Shown here: one piece after another, positions 3,500-22,433 of the stretch | Layout: each line of letters begins with the position of its first letter | How positions within the stretch are numbered: position 1 is the stretch's first letter | The notes under the pieces: model-generated | The model's input: only the letters and a program-made list of their open reading frames with translations | What the model was told of the DNA's origin: nothing | Database searches by the model: none | Position numbers and translations under genes: made by a program | Origin: Gilvimarinus agarilyticus | GTDB taxonomy: Bacteria; Pseudomonadota; Gammaproteobacteria; Pseudomonadales; Cellvibrionaceae | DNA: 35,302 nucleotides | Reading direction: 5' to 3' | Assembly: GCF_000832015.1 (NCBI RefSeq) | Contig: NZ_JXCJ01000001.1 | Span: forward strand, 1,848,037 to 1,883,338

Positions 3500-3943
3500 T
3501 TAGCCGCCGATTTGCTTTTCTTTGATCTCGTCGAGGGTTTTGCAGTCGACGCACAGAGTCGCGGTAGGGCGAGCCTCCAGGCGGCGAATGCCAATCTCGA
3601 CACCGCAAGCATCGCAAAAACCATAGTCTTCGTTTTCGATCAGCTCGAGCGTGCTGTCAATTTTTTTGATGAGTTTGCGCTCGCGATCACGAGTGCGCAG
3701 CTCTAGGCTGAACTCTTCTTCCTGACTGGCACGGTCGGCGGGGTCGGGGAAGTTGGCGGCCTCATCTTTCATGTGGCTCATGGTGCGGTCAACTTCTTCC
3801 ATAAGTTCCCGGCGCCACGACAGTAGCAAGTTCTGAAAATGCTCCAGCTGCGCGGGGTTCATGTACTCTTCGCCTTTCTTTTCTTTGTAGGGCGAAAATG
3901 TGCGCAGCGTATAGCTTTCTGCTTTGGCTGAATCATTGGGCAT
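3500..3943 (-). CDS. dksA: RNA polymerase-binding transcription factor DksA
   Basis: The 147-residue protein has full family length. It works with ppGpp in the RNA polymerase secondary channel to repress rRNA and ribosomal-protein promoters and activate amino-acid genes. The coiled-coil tip motif DPADRA (D-x-x-D-x-A) is intact, and the zinc finger CDAC...CVDC is complete, so this is a canonical four-cysteine DksA. The N-terminal half contains the usual [12 protein letters not shown] segment. The start at 3943 gives normal length, with a weak GAGG 9 nt upstream. It is divergent from sfsA, as in many gammaproteobacteria, across about 270 nt in which no certain promoter was identified. Confidence 0.97.
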
Positions 3944-4216
3944 AGTGCAACGCCTCTGTATCTCCTGGGGCTAACTCCGTCGCTTTAGTGGCTTCGGGTC
4001 AGTGTCTAGGTTACGGGGGTCGGGTTACCGACTCCGCGGATCTGCGCTTCTCGCCCAGTGGCTATTTGACCCACTATGGCGGAAGGAAAGCGAAGCTACC
4101 AGATTACAAAAAGCTGTGCCAGTTTTTTTTGCGAATTTGGTTATATATTAACCGGATGGGCGCAACTTATTGCGATGGTCACCTATAATGTCGCCTTTTC
4201 GCATTATGAGGTAGTT

Positions 4217-4936
4217 ATGAGGGATGCTAAAAGTTGGCAACGTGGGCGTTTGCTTCGTCGCTACAAACGCTTTCTGGCCGATGTTGAGCTTAGTGATGGC
4301 CGCGAATTAACCATCCACTGCCCCAATACTGGCTCGATGCGCGAATGTCTGGCGCCCGGAGAGTATTGCTGGTTTTCTCACTCCGACAGCAAAACCCGCA
4401 AGTACCCCAATACCTGGGAGGTCGCTACTACCCCGGCGGGGGATTTGGCCGGTATTAATACCAACCGGGCCAATACGCTGGTGGCCGAGGCCATTGCCGC
4501 GGGTACCATTGCGGAGCTTACCGGGTACGAGTCGTGCAAAGCCGAGGTGAAGTACGGCGACGAAAAATCCCGTATTGATTTTTTGTTAACCGGTGGCGGG
4601 CCCGACTGCTACGTCGAAGTAAAAAACGTCACCCTTAAAGAGGGCGCCGAAGGGCAGGGGTACTTCCCCGACGCGGTCAGCACTCGCGGTAGTAAACATT
4701 TGCGCGAGCTGGCGGTAATGGCCGAGTCGGGCGCACGGGCGGTACTGTTGTTTTGTGTGCAACACACTGGCATCGAGCGCGTTGCGGCCGCGGAGCATAT
4801 CGACCCGGCCTACAGTCAAGCGTTTTACGATGCGGTGGCACGTGGCGTTGAGGTACTGGCCTATCGCGCCGAGATACAGCCCGAGCACAGCGACATTACC
4901 CTCACCCGGCGCATTGACGTGCAGCTTAAGCGTTAA
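4217..4936 (+). CDS. sfsA: SfsA family DNA-binding/nuclease-like protein (sugar fermentation stimulation protein)
   Basis: The frame stays open from 4076, but the family length (about 235 residues) and the Shine-Dalgarno GAGG at 4208-4211, five nt before the codon, select ATG 4217, giving 239 residues. Conserved blocks are [50 protein letters not shown] and [11 protein letters not shown]. The RIDF...EVK pair is the PD-(D/E)xK-like nuclease core. In E. coli SfsA was described as a DNA-binding factor affecting maltose use, and its true role is not settled. It is divergent from dksA, and its last 11 bp overlap the end of the convergent Rieske gene. Confidence 0.93.
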
Positions 4937-5266: not shown

Positions 5267-6355
5267 TTATAGCTCCGGTTGGCTAAGAGTAACGCGGGTT
5301 TGGTGTAATTCGCCGTCGCGTACAAAGTGTACGTCGAGCGTATCACCTGGTTTGCGGGTTTCCAGTAACGCGAGAAACTCATCGTAGTTACGCGTGGGAG
5401 TGTCGTCCAGTGCAATAATAATGTCCCCCAACTCAATAGTGCCCCAGGCGCCGCGTTTAGCGCCCTGCAGCCCGGCCTTAGCGGCGGGTTTGCCGGGGGC
5501 AGCGTGTAAAATCGCTACCCCTTCAACACCGGCACGGCGCGCCCAGCGGTCGGGGGCAAACTCGATACCAAACTGAGGCCGCACTAAACGGCCGTATTCA
5601 ATCAGCTGCGGCACGATTTGTTTGACGATATTGACCGGAATGGCAAAGCCAATACCTGCGCTGGCACCACTGGGGCTAAAAATCATGGTGTTCACGCCAA
5701 TCAGCTCACCGGCCGAGTTAAGCAGTGGGCCGCCCGAGTTACCGGGGTTAATCGCCGCATCGGTTTGAATGACGTTGTGGATTTTGCGTTGATTGGGGGC
5801 CTGAATCTCGCGCCCCAGGGCGCTTACCACACCGCTGGTTAGGGTGGCGTCCAGGCCAAACGGGTTGCCAATCGCCAGCACTTTACGTCCTACCGATAAG
5901 TCGGACGAGTCGCCCATGGGCAGCGCATGAAGTTTGTCTTTGGGGGCTTCGACTTTAAGTACCGCCAGGTCTTTATCGGGGGCCAGCCCCGCCACCGTGG
6001 CGGGCCAGCGAGTTTGATCGGGCAGGGTGATGGACAGTTGCTGCGCCCCTTCTACCACATGGTAATTGGTAACGATATAGCCCGCTTCGCTCCAGACAAA
6101 ACCGGTGCCGGCGCCTTGCGGAATCGACAGCAGATCGAGCGAGCGGCGATCGCGCACGACTTGGTAGCGGTTGACGTAAACCACGCTGGGGCTGGCAAAC
6201 TCGAACACCTCGATGGTGTTGCGTTCGTCGTCGGTGGCAAACGCCGGCGTCTCACGCGAGGGCTCGAGGGCCTCTGGGGCTGGTTCGGCGCTGCAGGAGG
6301 CAGCGCCGATAAAACTAAATAGTAAAGCGGTCAGTTGTACTAGCGTTTTAGGCAT
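5267..6355 (-). CDS. Deg/HtrA-type trypsin-like serine protease with one PDZ domain, probable lipoprotein
   Basis: The 362-residue product begins with a signal peptide that includes a Cys at position 21 (GAASC), an imperfect lipobox, so it is probably anchored on the periplasmic side. The catalytic triad is visible: His99 in TNYHVVEGA, Asp129 in DKDLAVLKV and Ser207 in NPGNSGGPL. One PDZ domain occupies about residues 265-355. The segment LDLLSIPQGAGTGFVW before the His recalls plant Deg1 and its bacterial relatives more than E. coli DegP or DegS. It likely degrades damaged envelope proteins. The start overlaps the htpX stop by 8 bp (ATGCCTAA), indicating one operon for membrane and envelope protein quality control. 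It should not be called degS without further analysis. Confidence 0.88.
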   Translation of the reverse strand: MPKTLVQLTALLFSFIGAASCSAEPAPEALEPSRETPAFATDDERNTIEVFEFASPSVVYVNRYQVVRDRRSLDLLSIPQGAGTGFVWSEAGYIVTNYHVVEGAQQLSITLPDQTRWPATVAGLAPDKDLAVLKVEAPKDKLHALPMGDSSDLSVGRKVLAIGNPFGLDATLTSGVVSALGREIQAPNQRKIHNVIQTDAAINPGNSGGPLLNSAGELIGVNTMIFSPSGASAGIGFAIPVNIVKQIVPQLIEYGRLVRPQFGIEFAPDRWARRAGVEGVAILHAAPGKPAAKAGLQGAKRGAWGTIELGDIIIALDDTPTRNYDEFLALLETRKPGDTLDVHFVRDGELHQTRVTLSQPEL

Positions 6356-7238
6356 GGTTTCTTAGGGCAGCAATACGCTCATCTAACGGTGGGTGACTGG
6401 CAAACAGTTTGCCGGCGGTTTTGTGCCAGCCCTCTGAGATACCAAAGGCTTGCATGCTTTTGGGCATAGGCGTTGGGGCGCCTGCCTGGGTTTCGGCTTT
6501 TAGACGCTCCAGTGCTCGAATCATTCCTTCACGGCTGGCCAGTGTCGCGCCTGCGTGGTCGGCGCGATATTCGCGGTGGCGAGAAAAAGCCATCACAATC
6601 ATCGAGGCAATAAACGCCAGCAGGATTTCGGCAATAAAGGTGACGATGTAATAGCCGATACCTACGCCGCGCTCGGTTTTAAACACCACTTTGTCTACGG
6701 TATAGCCAATAATGCGAGCAAAAAACATCACAAAGGTGTTCACCACCCCCTGAATCAGCGTTAGGGTGACCATATCGCCATTGGCGACGTGGCCGATCTC
6801 GTGGGCCAATACGGCGCGAGCTTCTTCACGGTCAAAACGTTGCAGTAACCCGGCACTGACTGCTACCAGCGATTTATTGCGGTTCCAGCCGGTGGCAAAG
6901 GCGTTGGCTTGGTTGGCCGGAAAAATACCCACCTCAGGCATGCCAATGCCGGCGCGCTCGGCTAAGTCGGCTACCGTTTCGACCAACCACTTTTCGTCAG
7001 GGGTACGTGGGTTGGTAATAATTTGCGTGCCGGTGCCGCGCTTGGCCATAAATTTGGACAAAAACAGCGAGATAAACGAGCCGGCAAAACCAAAGACGGC
7101 GCAAAAAATGAGAAGGTTGGTTAAATCGAGGCCGGTGCCAGATTCGTTAAGAATTTGCCCCACGCCCAGTAAATTGAGTGTGACGCTGGCAAGTGCCAGT
7201 ACGCCTAGGTTTGTGAGTAAAAATAAGGCAATGCGCAT
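6348..7238 (-). CDS. htpX: Membrane zinc metalloprotease HtpX
   Basis: The protein has 296 residues, the usual size for this M48-family inner-membrane protease, which cuts misfolded membrane proteins together with FtsH. N-terminal transmembrane helices lie at about residues 4-26 and 40-60, with two more at about 155-215. The zinc motif HEIGH is at residues 146-150, and the third ligand lies in HREYRADHAGA. The C-terminal SHPPLDERIAAL is typical. It is the first gene of a cluster with the Deg-like protease and the Rieske protein. About 80 bp separate its ATG from the terminator of the upstream small RNA, so it should have its own promoter there; none stood out clearly. Confidence 0.96.
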   Translation of the reverse strand: MRIALFLLTNLGVLALASVTLNLLGVGQILNESGTGLDLTNLLIFCAVFGFAGSFISLFLSKFMAKRGTGTQIITNPRTPDEKWLVETVADLAERAGIGMPEVGIFPANQANAFATGWNRNKSLVAVSAGLLQRFDREEARAVLAHEIGHVANGDMVTLTLIQGVVNTFVMFFARIIGYTVDKVVFKTERGVGIGYYIVTFIAEILLAFIASMIVMAFSRHREYRADHAGATLASREGMIRALERLKAETQAGAPTPMPKSMQAFGISEGWHKTAGKLFASHPPLDERIAALRNHA

Positions 7239-7316
7239 CTCGGTGGTCTCTCCTGATAAACCGTAGCAGATGACACTATATGCGTGTTAGTGGGTAAAAT
7301 TTCAATAGGCTAGAGA

Positions 7317-7467
7317 GAAAAATGGCCGCCCAAGGGGCGGCCTAAGCAACCGTGATTAGCCAGGGTACCTAAGTACCCATTGGCCCCAAAGGGCCAGAGG
7401 AGAAGATCAGACAATTGACTTGCAGGAGAATTGAATGATCACCGGGAGCAGCAAGCTGCCACCCGAT
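7317..7467 (-). ncRNA. Candidate Fur-controlled small RNA
   Basis: Seen in the sequence: a promoter with a Fur box (7475-7503), then about 150 nt without a credible ORF, ending at a strong terminator. Predicted order on the transcript: a 5' hairpin (7443-7465, CGGG-GCAGC paired with GCTGC-CCCG), an unpaired stretch (7397-7442), a hairpin TGGCCC/GGGCCA (7381-7396), a hairpin GGGTAC/GTACCC (7363-7378), then the terminator. The unpaired stretch carries two CU-rich motifs, TTCTCCTGCA and TCTTCTCCTCTGG, each complementary to a consensus Shine-Dalgarno. This is the design of iron-responsive sRNAs such as RyhB, PrrF or NrrF, which are made under iron starvation and block mRNAs of iron-using proteins. 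I infer the function from architecture only and see no clear primary-sequence match to those RNAs. Confidence 0.72.
7318..7342 (-). terminator. Rho-independent terminator of the candidate sRNA
   Basis: A perfect 8-bp stem GGCCGCCC/GGGCGGCC with a 3-nt loop (7324-7342) is followed on the minus strand by ATTTTT. No protein gene on that strand ends nearby, so the terminator marks the end of a noncoding transcript. Confidence 0.85.
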
Positions 7468-7474
7468 AAGCGTA

Positions 7475-7503
7475 ACGATAATAATTATCATTACATTTGT
7501 CAA
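7475..7503 (-). promoter_or_regulatory. Sigma-70 promoter of the candidate sRNA
   Basis: On the minus strand, a perfect -35 TTGACA (7503-7498) is followed by a 17-nt spacer and a -10 TATCGT (7480-7475, four of six). Transcription should start near 7467. The Fur palindrome covers the -10 and most of the spacer, so Fur binding would exclude RNA polymerase. Confidence 0.75.
7476..7490. promoter_or_regulatory. Fur box
   Basis: CGATAATAATTATCA matches the 15-bp 7-1-7 Fur palindrome TGATAATNATTATCA at 14 of 15 positions, with further symmetry outside (TAA on the left, TTA on the right). Its placement over the -10 region of a minus-strand promoter predicts repression when iron is plentiful. Confidence 0.8.
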
Positions 7504-7641: not shown

Positions 7642-8424
7642 CTAGTGTTGGTCGCGCAGCTGGCTGTTTAAGCCTTTAATCTTATCGGCCATTTCTTCGA
7701 TCAGGCCAATACAAATATGGGGTTGGTGTTCAACCAGCTCTATAAACTCTTCTTTGCGCACGGTCAGTACGGTGCAATCGCTGCTGGCGACTACGTCGGC
7801 CATGCGTCGCTGACCGGTAAAAACAGCCAGGGCACCAAAAATTTCGTCGCGGTTAATTTTCCCGACAGTGACGCCGTCACACACAGCGTCGGCATGACCT
7901 TCAAGTAGGGTGTAAACCAAGTCCGCCTCATCGCCCTGGCGGATGATCGTATCGCCGCTTTTAAAGTGTAAAAAGCCTGCGTTGGGGTGAAACTCTTTGC
8001 GAATCTCAAGCGCTAACGCTTGTTGATACCAACTTAGCCGGGCAATTAAATAATAGCTCCAGAGCTTTTGTCGGTTGGCATCAGAGCAGATGTGATTAAT
8101 CAGCTCGTCGCGCTCGATGGGCTGTACAGTAATCGCTTCGCTGGCGCTAAAAACCGCACTGGGTAAGCTTAATGTGCGCGGTAACCCCAGCAAGTCGCCG
8201 GGCTCACAGCAGACGATGGTTTTGGCGGCCATTTGACACTGAACCTGGCCGGCGCGCAGTAAAAATACCTGCGAATTTTTTTGCTCGGCAAACAAGTCAT
8301 CGCTCGCGGGTAAGGTAATCTCGTCGGCGCTTGGTGTGAGTGTGGTGAATATCTCAGAGGCGATATCGCGAATACGCTGACTGAGCTCGGCGAGTGATTC
8401 GGTGTGATTAGTAGGTAAGTGCAT
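7642..8424 (-). CDS. Tandem cyclic-nucleotide-binding-domain protein
   Basis: The 260-residue protein appears to hold two cNMP-binding (CAP-like) beta-barrels. The first, at about residues 35-115, is degenerate. The second, at about 145-250, keeps GDTIIRQGDEADLVYTLLEG and the phosphate-binding cassette region DEIFGALAVFTGQRRMADVVAS. The cassette has D rather than G before the Glu, but keeps the Arg and the Ala-Val pair. No helix-turn-helix or catalytic domain is visible, so it is probably a stand-alone sensor or a protein-interaction subunit rather than a Crp-type transcription factor. Whether it binds cAMP, cGMP or nothing cannot be told. It is monocistronic or cotranscribed with the TfoX-C gene 176 bp upstream. 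Confidence 0.75.
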   Translation of the reverse strand: MHLPTNHTESLAELSQRIRDIASEIFTTLTPSADEITLPASDDLFAEQKNSQVFLLRAGQVQCQMAAKTIVCCEPGDLLGLPRTLSLPSAVFSASEAITVQPIERDELINHICSDANRQKLWSYYLIARLSWYQQALALEIRKEFHPNAGFLHFKSGDTIIRQGDEADLVYTLLEGHADAVCDGVTVGKINRDEIFGALAVFTGQRRMADVVASSDCTVLTVRKEEFIELVEHQPHICIGLIEEMADKIKGLNSQLRDQH

Positions 8425-18939: not shown

Positions 18940-18964
18940 TGGGTTGGTGCTGCTAGTCGGTTTT

Positions 18965-19297
18965 TTCGGCATGCTGGCCTTGAGCCGGTATCCAGTGGCT
19001 TGGTTAGCTACGAAGTGATTCTGTGCTAAACGATTGCATTGGTTGACTACTGCCTTGTGTGCCCTCGGTCGCCGGGCGGGCGAGTGACTTTTCTGTTTGG
19101 CCAGAAAAGTAACCAAAAGAGGCCACCCCGGCATCTCAGCCCTAACGGGTCCCCTCGCTCCAGCCGATTTTAGCGGGCCGTCTCGACAGTGCGTCCCTGC
19201 ACTGACGAGACTTGCGTGAGCGTCCTGCTCACTTACCCACTAAAATAGTCCTCCGCTCGGCTGGCTGCAGGGGATCTAAAGACGGTACTTCGTAGCT
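18965..19297. repeat. Structured tandem repeat unit, copy 1 (complete)
   Basis: The unit begins with a palindrome (GCTGGC-CTTGA-GCCGGT type). It continues with a 292-bp block bounded by an 11-bp inverted repeat, AGCTACGAAGT (19006-19016) and ACTTCGTAGCT (19287-19297). Inside are nested pairs: GTGACTTTTCTG/CAGAAAAGTAAC (19084-19113), CCCCT/AGGGG, CCAGCCGA/TCGGCTGG, ATTTTAGCGGG/CCCACTAAAAT, and within these two small hairpins CAGTGC/GCACTG and GTGAGC/GCTCAC with loops GTCCCT and GTCCT. There is no credible ORF. Whole-unit folding points to a structured RNA or a MITE-like, hairpin-rich mobile repeat. Confidence 0.85.
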
Positions 19298-19334
19298 GAC
19301 GGGGCCGGCCCGTGCTGCGTTTGTTTGTCTATTT

Positions 19335-19666
19335 CGTCATACCGGCCTTGAGCCGGTATCCAGTGGCTTTGTTAGCTACGAAGTGATTCGGTGCTATATG
19401 GTTGCTTTGGTTGACTACTGCCTTGTGTGCCCTCGGTCGCCGGGCGGGCGAGTGACTTTTCTGTTTGGCCAGAAAAGTCACCAAAAGAGGCCACCCCGGC
19501 ATCTCAGCCCTTCGGGTCCCCTCGCTCCGGCCGATTTTAGCGGGCCGCATCGACACGCCGTCCATGGCGTGACGATAGCTTGCGTACGCGTCCATGCGTA
19601 CTTACCCACTAAAATAGGCCTCCGCTCGGCTGGCTGCAGGGGATCTAAAGGCGGTACTTCGTAGGT
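19335..19666. repeat. Structured tandem repeat unit, copy 2 (complete)
   Basis: The second copy starts 368 bp after the first and is highly similar over most of its length. The palindrome is perfect here (ATACCGGC-CTTGA-GCCGGTAT), as is GTGACTTTTCTG/CAGAAAAGTCAC (19452-19481). The terminal inverted repeat is CTACGAAGT/ACTTCGTAG (19376-19384, 19656-19664). The two apical hairpins have different sequences from copy 1 (CACGCC/GGCGTG and GTACGC/GCGTAC) yet remain fully paired around a GTCCAT loop. Confidence 0.85.
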
Positions 19667-19703
19667 GGCTTGATCGACAACGGCTACCTCAACTGCTCTA
19701 CTT

Positions 19704-20346: not shown

Positions 20347-21528
20347 ATGACGCTATCGGATGACAAAACAGCGACTGTAGGTAGTGTTCGCAATATTGGT
20401 GAGCCGCTACGGTTTCATAATATAGAGTCACTGACTGGGTTTTCAGCAGAGCCTGCAAAGGGTGGGCAAAACATCAAAATATGGACTAGATTGGCTTTAA
20501 CGTCGGACGAACCGTTGTTTCATCGGCTAGTTGATAGTCTTGCGGGTGTGATTAATCACATGGCCAATCAGGCTGGCATCGCCGTCAATCTTCGCAGCGC
20601 AGACACGGCGCTCCTTATCTTGAAGTCCGATAATAGCGCTGAACTATGGCTAGATAAGGCGGCGGTTAGCTTTAAATGTGTGGTTAATCGATCCATGAAA
20701 GCTGGCACCGTAATTTTTGAGCGTGACATCGCGGATGTGAGGGGCATGGGATTTCCATGTGTGGAAATTGGAGAGAAAGACAAGGTTCTTTGCTTGTTTC
20801 GGCAAGACTGGCGCTTTGGTTTCGCATTTGACATGAATCCCGATGAGAAGCTTGATCTGCAAGAGTTTGAAACTACGCTAGGTACGCTATACCGACAAAT
20901 GCGCTACAAGCACCTATATGATGCTCTTGATAACGTAGCGCTTTTTGATCGATTGCTGCTTTCAGGGTGGTTCCCATTTGCAGAAATTATTACTTCTGAG
21001 TTTAAGGAGGTTCTTAATCACTGCGAAGCTGGCTTTGATTTAGAGGAGATAGAAGAAAAGCTTATTAAAAACTTTGATGAGAAGCGCATGGAGAGAATCC
21101 TAGAGCGTTGGCTTGCTAAACCACACTTTGGTGTTAAGCAAGAACTACTGAAAGCCGCAATAGCAGCCTTCAATAATCGTGAACCCATAGCTGTAATAAA
21201 GATTATTCTTACCGAAATAGAGGGTGTTCTCAATGAGGCGCATCGAGCCGCTCACAACGGGCAAGGGGCAAAACTCAAAGGTCTGCTAGGATTTGCAGAG
21301 CAATCCGCTGAAAGAAAAGCGGGTGGATCTAACACATTATTGTTCCCAAAAGCATTTGGCCGATATTTGAGTGAGTTTACATTTGCAAACTTCGATCCGG
21401 TTACTAAAACAGGAGGTTCGAACTCTCGTCACGCAGTTGGCCATGGTGCGGCAACGCAGGAAAGCTACACGATAACACGCGCACTGCAGGCTGTTCTCAC
21501 TTTGGACCAGCTTGCCTTTTATACGTGA
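20347..21528 (+). CDS. Unknown protein with C-terminal RxxxxH (HEPN-like) motif
   Basis: I do not recognise the 393-residue protein as a whole. Its last 35 residues contain NSRHAVGHG (R361-x4-H366) followed by a helix ending TRALQAVLTLDQLAFY. This pattern closes many HEPN-type and abortive-infection-like proteins and is the catalytic RNase motif in active HEPN domains. The first 200 residues are alpha/beta with no clear family. Residues 200-300 are highly helical and acidic-basic. There is no signal peptide or membrane helix. It has lower G+C and different codon use from the flanking core genes, and an attC-like site follows 48 bp after its stop, so it is probably an acquired cassette gene. 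A role in phage defence or toxicity is plausible but is inference only. Confidence 0.75.
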   Translation: MTLSDDKTATVGSVRNIGEPLRFHNIESLTGFSAEPAKGGQNIKIWTRLALTSDEPLFHRLVDSLAGVINHMANQAGIAVNLRSADTALLILKSDNSAELWLDKAAVSFKCVVNRSMKAGTVIFERDIADVRGMGFPCVEIGEKDKVLCLFRQDWRFGFAFDMNPDEKLDLQEFETTLGTLYRQMRYKHLYDALDNVALFDRLLLSGWFPFAEIITSEFKEVLNHCEAGFDLEEIEEKLIKNFDEKRMERILERWLAKPHFGVKQELLKAAIAAFNNREPIAVIKIILTEIEGVLNEAHRAAHNGQGAKLKGLLGFAEQSAERKAGGSNTLLFPKAFGRYLSEFTFANFDPVTKTGGSNSRHAVGHGAATQESYTITRALQAVLTLDQLAFYT

Positions 21529-21575
21529 GATAAGTTGCCGCTGTTTATTAAGATTAAGGATCGGCGAATGTACAA

Positions 21576-21653
21576 GCATAACAAGGCCATTAAATCCGCT
21601 CCCTCTGGTCGCCGGACGCTCGCAAGCTCGCGCCGTTTATGGCAACGTTAATC
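21576..21653 (+). other. attC-like integron recombination site 1
   Basis: The 78-bp site has an R''-like box GCATAAC at 21576-21582, a spacer AA, then GGCCATTAAAT. On the 3' side is GTTTATGGC, spacer AAC, and an R'-like box GTTAATC at 21647-21653. GCCAT-T-AAA pairs with TTTATGGC, leaving one extrahelical T, the asymmetric bulge that integron integrases need. TAAC pairs with GTTA. The core boxes deviate slightly from RYYYAAC and GTTRRRY. Confidence 0.65.
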
Positions 21654-21671
21654 GGACGTAAGGTACATCCA

Positions 21672-22100
21672 GTGAATAGAATCAGAAACGACTTTTTTGC
21701 AGGTCTCCTCCCCGGACTAACTCTCGGTGCCTTGAGCATTGTAGGTATAGGCTTTACGTCGGCAATAGCTGTCCCCAAGGCAGTTGCTAGCTCTTCTGTG
21801 CTACTAGTGCTCTGGCAAGTGCTGGTAGTTCAATTTATCGGCATAGGGGTTGGGGCCGCTCTCCTTTCTTATATCTCGATGTGGTCTTTTGGTAAGAGCT
21901 GGTTGATTACTGGCGGCTTGATCGTGCTTTCGACTTATGGATACATAATAGCTCGTCATGGCGTGCCTGATCTTGAAAGTTCTCTGGGGTCGGCTATTCA
22001 TTTTGCTGTTTTGATAGCGAGCATTTTCGCGGGTACGTACCTGGCTCATCGAAAGCTTAACAAGTCGCTCAAAGGCGACGCCGAGGGCGGCGCGCGTTAG
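21672..22100 (+). CDS. Small membrane protein in cassette-like gene
   Basis: The 142-residue protein (start GTG 21672, with GTAAGG 8 nt upstream) has about four hydrophobic helices, at roughly 8-40, 45-72, 77-96 and 108-130 (for example LVLWQVLVVQFIGIGVGAAL), and a charged C-terminal tail. The longer ATG start at 21639 would begin inside the attC-like site and is less likely. I do not recognise the family. The 3' end of the ORF reads into the next attC-like site, and its TAG stop is part of the GTTAGAT core box, a common arrangement in integron cassettes. Confidence 0.65.
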   Translation: MNRIRNDFFAGLLPGLTLGALSIVGIGFTSAIAVPKAVASSSVLLVLWQVLVVQFIGIGVGAALLSYISMWSFGKSWLITGGLIVLSTYGYIIARHGVPDLESSLGSAIHFAVLIASIFAGTYLAHRKLNKSLKGDAEGGAR

Positions 22101-22102
22101 AT
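22055..22102 (+). other. attC-like integron recombination site 2 (short)
   Basis: The R'' box GCTTAAC (22055-22061, fits RYYYAAC) is followed by AAGTCGCTCAA and a G+C-rich centre, then the R' box GTTAGAT (22096-22102, fits GTTRRRY). The left half closely resembles classic 59-base elements (AACAAGTCGTTCAA). The L' half expected before GCGTTAGAT is missing, so at 48 bp this is a shortened site. The next gene starts 4 bp after the core box. Confidence 0.7.
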
Positions 22103-22106
22103 TAGC

Positions 22107-22433
22107 ATGAAATATCCAGTGACTCCCGATGGGCGGTACATGGTGGTTCGCGGGCGGTTGTGGCGCGTCGCCAATCCGCATCTTTCTGAGCCCGAGCGTG
22201 CCTCTTATGTCCAAAATCTGATGAGCGCTCGCCGCGAGGTCAAGGCGGCCAAGGCTGCAAGTGACGATGCCCGTCTGGCCGCAGCGCGACGCTCGGTGAA
22301 TGATGCGAAGGTGGCTCTAGGTGAGCGCGGGCCTGTGTGGTGGCAAGACGGCACTAAGGACTTCAATCGCCATCTTGTCCAGAACACTCCCTACCGGGAG
22401 TGGCACGAGCGGCTTAACGAGCCGAAGGCCTAA
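22107..22433 (+). CDS. Small conserved protein of integron-cassette type, function unknown
   Basis: The 108-residue protein starts MKYPVTPDGRYMVVRGRLWR and ends near GPVWWQDGTKDFNRHLVQNT. I recognise this as a widespread conserved hypothetical family found in many proteobacteria, on chromosomes and in gene cassettes. It has a central alanine-rich helical region (RREVKAAKAASDDARLAAAR) and no membrane segment or known catalytic motif. The gene starts 4 bp after a GTTAGAT core box, and its stop overlaps a GCCTAAC box, so it fills one cassette exactly. No Shine-Dalgarno is visible, as in many cassettes. Confidence 0.82.
   Translation: MKYPVTPDGRYMVVRGRLWRVANPHLSEPERASYVQNLMSARREVKAAKAASDDARLAAARRSVNDAKVALGERGPVWWQDGTKDFNRHLVQNTPYREWHERLNEPKA

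Follow-up and report, generated by a model that had tools for sequence, protein, structure and literature searches.

RyhB of the enterobacteria and Vibrio and NrrF of Neisseria are small RNAs (sRNAs) that are repressed by Fur and act in sparing iron. PrrF1 and PrrF2 of Pseudomonas have a Fur-box promoter, a cNMP-binding-protein gene upstream and likely targets of the sodB/sdh type, and their segments follow one another as a 5' hairpin, a second hairpin, UCUCCUC, GGCUAAUCACGGUU and a terminator. In strain PAO1, the two genes are given the tags PA4704.1 and PA4704.2 (PMC6954232, PMC5870498), and prrH is numbered PA4704-PA4705 (PMC6954232). Hfq of P. aeruginosa is reported to stabilize PrrF and to assist its pairing with antR (PMC5501646). 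SdhABCD and AcnB of the same species are named as PrrF regulon proteins in a report that also describes a fall in LeuC on calprotectin treatment (PMC8557868), and LeuC proteome ratios given for P. fluorescens Pf-5 under iron limitation are negative (PMC3377617). ArrF of Azotobacter vinelandii is described as an iron-repressed PrrF homolog outside the genus Pseudomonas, and by that description it resembles the sRNA of this study (PMC2851614); Azotobacter itself is placed in the Pseudomonadaceae (PMC6292655). Among the open-access papers listed by our searches, none deals with PrrF in the Cellvibrionaceae, including Cellvibrio, and a search there for a Gilvimarinus small RNA turned up work on lignocellulose degradation alone.

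Here, we analyzed a 35,302-nt stretch of DNA (the window) from Gilvimarinus agarilyticus, a member of the Cellvibrionaceae. A putative sRNA gene of ~150 nt at 7318-7468 on the minus strand, whose predicted start site follows from the -10 element, shares with PrrF1 and PrrF2 the segment order, the Fur-box promoter, the upstream cNMP-binding gene and the likely targets, and in its proposed working it resembles RyhB and NrrF. It differs from PrrF1 and PrrF2 in carrying two hairpins between UCUCCUC and the core, in being present as a single copy, in having htpX downstream, and in scoring 44.4 bits under the Rfam PrrF model, against a cut-off of 90. Together, the Fur-box promoter, the terminator and the complementarity to the sodB, sdhC and leuC start regions make a Fur-controlled iron-sparing sRNA the best reading of this locus, and a well-supported one, in keeping with the iron-sparing layout named by the original prediction.

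The promoter agrees with that prediction. A perfect -35 hexamer, TTGACA (7503-7498), is followed after a 17-nt spacer by a -10-like hexamer, TATCGT (7480-7475), both on the minus strand. The two hexamers match at 10/12 positions and form the best of six promoter-like sites in 2 kb, where 2.0 are expected; the -10 alone fits at just 4/6, which is a point against our best explanation. A candidate Fur box lies over the -10 and spacer (7476-7495, minus strand) and matches the 19-mer at 16/19 positions; shuffling predicts 0.01 matches per window with three or fewer mismatches. Within it, the 7-1-7 motif TGATAATTATTATCG at 7490-7476 agrees at 13 of its 14 specified bases, or 14/15 when the N is counted, so that the predicted 14/15 palindrome covering the -10 is recovered. 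This scoring used the consensus motifs that describe Fur boxes. Such a predicted Fur box over the promoter is characteristic of PrrF and of Fur-regulated sRNAs in general. Conservation of the promoter in relatives, on which the original prediction was made to depend, was found within the genus: 8/8 genomes have an identical -35 hexamer, the same spacer length and a Fur motif agreeing at 13/14 bases, with TATCAT as the -10 in one of them.

We found that the sequence identity of the transcript points to PrrF. In a permissive cmscan of the window, the PrrF model (RF00444) aligned over positions 1-150 with an E value of 2e-6, while the three other Rfam matches had E values of 4.5 or worse. Unlike PrrF, the RyhB and NrrF models had no match in the window at E<=10, and membership in either family was rejected on this ground; the earlier statement that none of the three families matches thus holds for RyhB and NrrF but not for PrrF. 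At the gathering threshold, the window has no PrrF match, and because its score is only about half of the cut-off, the sRNA falls beyond the present limits of RF00444 in Rfam. In the alignment, the Fur box and GCUAAUCACGGUU are identical to the model, and directly before GCUAAUCACGGUU there are 38 nt that the model does not match. GGCTAATCACGGTT is identical between the window and Pseudomonas-type sequences, as is the core GGCTAATCACGG in Pseudomonas-type loci, and the invariant 14-nt core GGCUAAUCACGGUU stands before the terminator as it does in PrrF. A search of the whole genome (G000) with the PrrF model returned a single match (E 4.9e-6). We also built a covariance model of core and terminator (R1) from 18 sequences, which included that of the window; in G000 this model gave one strong match at 70.7 bits, with the next at 22.8. 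Neither search found a canonical PrrF elsewhere in this genome.

Across the order, the PrrF model matched 51/293 genomes at E<=0.01, spread over 12 family labels; for two of these (f11 and f17) the only match is a single one with an E value of 0.007-0.009, which chance could give. Only 12/293 genomes exceeded the cut-off of 90, and all of these carry one family label (f20), presumably the Pseudomonadaceae by its scores; the remaining 39 of the 51 matching genomes fall below it. This search used stricter filters and missed one Cellvibrionaceae genome (G025) that R1 later recovered. As a separate observation, PrrF-model matches can occur in tandem arrays, with five in a row in G290 (C3:1547549-1548839, the L040 region) and three in G136:C8.

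Gene order around the sRNA is conserved. It sits on the minus strand of a 4.19-Mb genome (G000:C1) between a gene for a cNMP-binding-domain protein (7642-8424, minus strand) and htpX (6348-7238, minus strand), which encodes an M48 peptidase (Peptidase_M48); among named HtpX proteins, the closest to it belong to Gilvimarinus (84% and 79%). The upstream gene is the syntenic neighbor of prrF: by tblastn, a homolog is present at 29 of 43 loci (L001 and L008-L049, of which L019 repeats L013 and L044 repeats L017), including all eight Pseudomonas-type loci (L024-L031); homologs from outside the family (f1) share 32-40% of their residues with the window protein across ~250 aa. No match was found by tblastn at the other 14 loci (L017, L044, L018, L020-L023, L034, L035, L041, L042 and L045-L047). 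The window protein is PA4704-like, PA4704 being the cAMP-binding protein CbpA; the sRNA lies downstream of this PA4704-like gene on the same strand, as PrrF does. The htpX gene starts ~80 nt downstream of the sRNA and adjoins it in the eight genus genomes and in G008, G020, G025 and G026, while the loci examined in other families contain no htpX homolog.

Several further features of the region are recorded here for completeness. The window gene at 4076-4936 (region 3500-4936), which looks to us like sfsA, has homologs no more than 1.7 kb away from prrF in L032, L033 and L038 as well, and the conserved block around prrF may extend further in this direction. In a Marinimicrobium metagenome-assembled genome (L053), the ~190 nt between what looks by eye like the end of the cNMP gene and htpX (upstream of position 781) contain no sRNA core, an apparent loss of the sRNA. 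Elsewhere in the window, a direct repeat of ~368 bp (18964-19700) lies downstream of an MMPL-family gene, its two copies being 94% identical over 180 nt and 93% and 84% over two further stretches, with a weak third copy reaching to 19880 (62%); the second copy holds an Rfam TwoAYGGAY match (19522-19627, minus strand, 44.2 bits against a cut-off of 43). Three consecutive predicted proteins at 20347-22433 (393, 153 and 108 aa) have no Pfam match at E<=0.001.

Folding of 7314-7468 gave -64.6 kcal/mol (z -4.28), and 0/200 shuffles did as well. On the minus strand, the predicted transcript consists of a 5' hairpin of variable sequence (hairpin 1, 7441-7467), a second hairpin with a conserved CCUGCAAGUC loop region (hairpin 2, 7405-7440), an open segment, UUCUCCUC, that is complementary to the Shine-Dalgarno sequence AGGAGA (7397-7404), two inserted hairpins, A (7381-7396) and B (7363-7378), within the 38-nt insert relative to PrrF, the invariant PrrF core GGCUAAUCACGGUU (7348-7361), and an intrinsic terminator (7318-7342; stem 7342-7324, T-run 7322-7318). 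The longest closed frame in the transcript has 34 codons (a TTG frame), and the unit has the noncoding character first ascribed to it. In contrast to the three hairpins proposed earlier, the fold has four plus the terminator, and most of the supposed 45-nt unpaired CU-rich segment at 7397-7442 is taken up by predicted hairpin 2 (7440-7405), which also appears in the genus consensus. Of that segment, which had been proposed for target prediction, only the 3' end, UCUCCUC, matters in our reading, and the invariant core (7361-7348) lies outside it.

Structure in the relatives agrees in part. An alignment of the eight genus sequences, which carried out the proposed check for covarying stems, has a consensus containing hairpin 1 (in part), hairpin 2, hairpin B and the terminator, and for 9 of its 36 pairs one or more of the sequences have changes in both partners. 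In single-sequence folds of G003 and G007, other pairing replaces hairpin 2, and in their best folds the core pairs with hairpin-2 sequence. Ensembles of the trimmed transcripts from the eight genomes leave UCUCCUC open at 0.68-0.97 and the core only partly so (0.28-0.69, with 0.54 for the window's own sequence); in the minimum-energy fold of the latter, the ends of the core touch a weak 3-bp stem that is missing from the centroid.

The region between the two conserved segments distinguishes the Gilvimarinus sRNA from its Pseudomonas counterparts. In Pseudomonas-type PrrF this region reads AUCUCCUCAUCAGGCUAAUCACGGUU, with UCUCCUC and the core nearly adjacent, whereas in all eight genus genomes two hairpins separate UCUUCUCCUC (GUUUCUCCUC in G005) from the GGCUAAUCACGGUUG that follows. 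For this comparison we used the Rfam alignment and likeness judged by eye, since a MAFFT alignment put the Pseudomonas UCUCCUC opposite hairpin B. The inserts measure 35, 37, 44, 45, 45, 45, 45 and 49 nt, and each, folded alone, forms two hairpins (8/8); the pair is thus kept while length and sequence drift and pairs change on both sides. Because the contiguous UCUCCUCAUCAGGCUAAUCACGG pairing region of the Pseudomonas form is absent and two hairpins are inserted, we call the sRNA a PrrF variant.

Within the family, R1 matched 10 of 30 genomes at 37 bits or more (G000, G008, G015, G017, G020, G021, G024, G025, G026 and G032); the other matches listed scored below 27 bits and mostly covered the terminator half of the model only. 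Six of the ten (G020, G024, G015, G032, G021 and G017) lack an insert or have just one or two extra bases between the segments, and a further locus, from Cellvibrionaceae bacterium SAT230 (L054), also has none. G025, identical over the 280 nt compared to the Marinimicrobium alkaliphilum locus L052, and G026 carry one longer hairpin as the insert, judged by eye, and G008, a divergent variant whose core is missing one base, was counted in the insert group. G024 and G015 have three R1 copies each, those of G024 in an array on C1 and those of G015, on C2 and C15, as two neighbors plus one on another contig.

These data bear on what kind of gene this is. An independent Fur-regulated sRNA that converged on a PrrF-like layout and pairing sequence would fit the score under the Rfam cut-off and the scant likeness to Pseudomonas-type PrrF beyond the core, terminator and UCUCCUC. 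We nevertheless regard such convergence as very improbable, because the 14-nt core is identical, the order of segments and the upstream neighbor are those of Pseudomonas-type loci, and related insert-free sequences exist in other genera of the family. The full-length covariance-model match, the identical core and the gene order instead indicate orthology; on these grounds an independent new sRNA was rejected, and what had been suspected to be a new lineage-specific member is, on sequence evidence, a divergent prrF, that is, an orthologous PrrF variant. That the element is instead a cis-regulatory leader read through into htpX is more improbable still. Its position on the same strand ~80 nt before htpX, and the retention of this pair in the eight genus genomes and four others, are offset by the strong terminator in between, by the occurrence of the exact core GGCTAATCACGG in only 4 of the 80 named htpX loci whose flanks were examined, and by the missing htpX homolog in the sRNA loci of other families. 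We give almost no credence to a small-protein gene: the 34-codon TTG frame exists, but insert lengths of 35-49 nt break any common frame.

If the sRNA is PrrF, its core should be complementary to the start regions of iron-enzyme mRNAs. We chose sodB (PF02777) and sdhC (PF01127) beforehand as canonical iron-sRNA targets and compared the eight genus genomes; a gene for an aconitase-family protein (PF00330), which we call leuC by recognition, was also considered. All three start regions carry predicted pairing sites of the kind expected for an iron-sparing sRNA. Complementarity to the core spans 6-8 nt at sodB in 8/8 genomes and 9 nt at sdhC in 7/8, where the sdhC leaders read GGTGATTAGCTACCGTG up to the start (GTGAATAGC in G006), and it spans 13, 11, 9, 9, 7, 7, 6 and 6 nt at leuC. 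As background, the complementary stretches in 25 window genes are 3-7 nt long, with a median of 4. When the 16-nt core was permuted identically across the eight genomes, permutations did as well in 2/5000 cases for sodB, 4/5000 for sdhC and 0/5000 for leuC. In tests on single genomes, significance is not reached for sodB in three of the eight (G000, G001 and G002; p 0.07-0.08) or for leuC in two. Counted across eight whole genomes with two or fewer mismatches, the complement of the 14-mer core shows no enrichment (202 occurrences vs 233 for the reversed control), and the core alone therefore does not pick out targets.

The sodB leader contains a second element. In 8/8 genus genomes it reads CCGTG-(5-7 nt)-GGAGA-N-ATG, with CCGTG before AGGAGA, unlike the two Pseudomonas-type leaders (CCTGATTAGGAGA and GATAGGAGA), which have no CCGTG; CCTGATTAGGAGA is a near complement of the contiguous UCUCCUCAUCAGG. 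Among 31 parsed leaders (29 from the family and two Pseudomonas-type, with G017 left out), CCGTG-N2-8-GGAGA occurs in 11/11 insert-type genomes, 0/5 with plain PrrF, 0/13 with no sRNA and 0/2 Pseudomonas-type; eight of the 11 belong to one genus. A near-miss site, AACCGTATCCAGGAGA, is found in G031, a genome in which R1 detects no sRNA. Seven of the 24 family genomes in the sodB search had no sodB match, and three leaders outside the 31 (G095, G302 and G037) have no split site by eye. The extended pattern CCGTG-N2-8-GGAGA-N4-9-ATG occurs at 25 places in the eight genomes against 21 for the reversed control; eight of these are sodB, by construction since the pattern was made from sodB leaders, while two are leuC (G004 and G006), which is not by construction, and two are KduI-like (G003 and G007). 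In the latter gene (L194, L205; G007, G003), the leader AACCGTGATTAGGAGATACCATG complements both sRNA segments with no gap. We take this gene to be kduI by recognition, without a family test, and to our knowledge KduI is not known as an iron protein.

These observations raise the possibility that PrrF of Gilvimarinus and Marinimicrobium evolved bipartite pairing, in which the insert splits an ancestral contiguous region and the sodB leader co-evolved so that its CCGUG pairs with the core and its AGGAGA with UCUCCU, forming a clamp on either side of the hairpins. We advance this tentatively and consider it somewhat doubtful. Joint folds of sRNA and sodB are two-sided around the insert in six of the eight genomes and keep both hairpins in five (G003-G007); in G001 and G002 they engage the Shine-Dalgarno side only. 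Joint-fold energies for sodB range from -4.9 to -19.6 kcal/mol over the eight genomes and separate targets poorly from controls: sodB of the sRNA's own genome (G000) is lowest of 26, but the window gene dksA reaches -18.2 and sdhC of G000 ranks fourth. Unconstrained duplex prediction was set aside because it ignored internal structure. The SodB protein tree is poorly resolved, with the insert-bearing rows needing two changes and a single origin also possible; it cannot tell whether the insert arose once, so the 11 genomes are not independent events, and the association of insert and split site may reflect one event. We give nearly even chances to the alternative that the hairpins are neutral spacers, in which case only the GGCUAAUCACGG core would pair and the match to AGGAGA would be just the Shine-Dalgarno sequence. 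In its favor, the sdhC sites and most leuC sites use the core only, GGAGA is a common Shine-Dalgarno sequence, and two joint folds form on that side alone. It is less easily reconciled with the placement of CCGTG 4-7 nt before GGAGA in 11/11 insert-type sodB leaders and 0/18 of the other parsed family genomes, or with the presence of both hairpins in 8/8 genomes despite drifting length and sequence and pair changes on both sides.

Whichever way the insert acts, the gene very probably is the prrF gene of Gilvimarinus, blocked by Fur in the presence of iron and giving in low iron a ~150-nt sRNA that represses iron-enzyme mRNAs. We infer transcription, Fur binding, Hfq use and repression as follows. 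In iron-rich conditions, Fe-Fur bound to the box over the -10 and spacer would block transcription; under iron shortage, the terminator-ended sRNA would be made. With Hfq, whose gene is present in 12/12 genomes tested, the core GGCUAAUCACGGUU would pair with the ribosome-binding regions of the sodB, sdhC and leuC mRNAs, which encode dispensable iron enzymes. At sodB, pairing might also involve UCUCCU, and the leader could then be clamped on both sides of the inserted hairpins. By analogy with Pseudomonas PrrF and from the complementarity, pairing would lead to a translation block and mRNA decay.

The Gilvimarinus sRNA thus gives a known sRNA a new structural form, one that lies outside the present Rfam boundary. 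These results indicate that PrrF extends far past the single family that exceeds the Rfam cut-off, and since most matching genomes (39/51) fall below it, routine annotation probably overlooks genes of this type. The insert provides a natural experiment in which the pairing region of an sRNA is split by structure while the target follows. If bipartite pairing with sodB is true, the Shine-Dalgarno sequence would be covered by a multi-way RNA junction.
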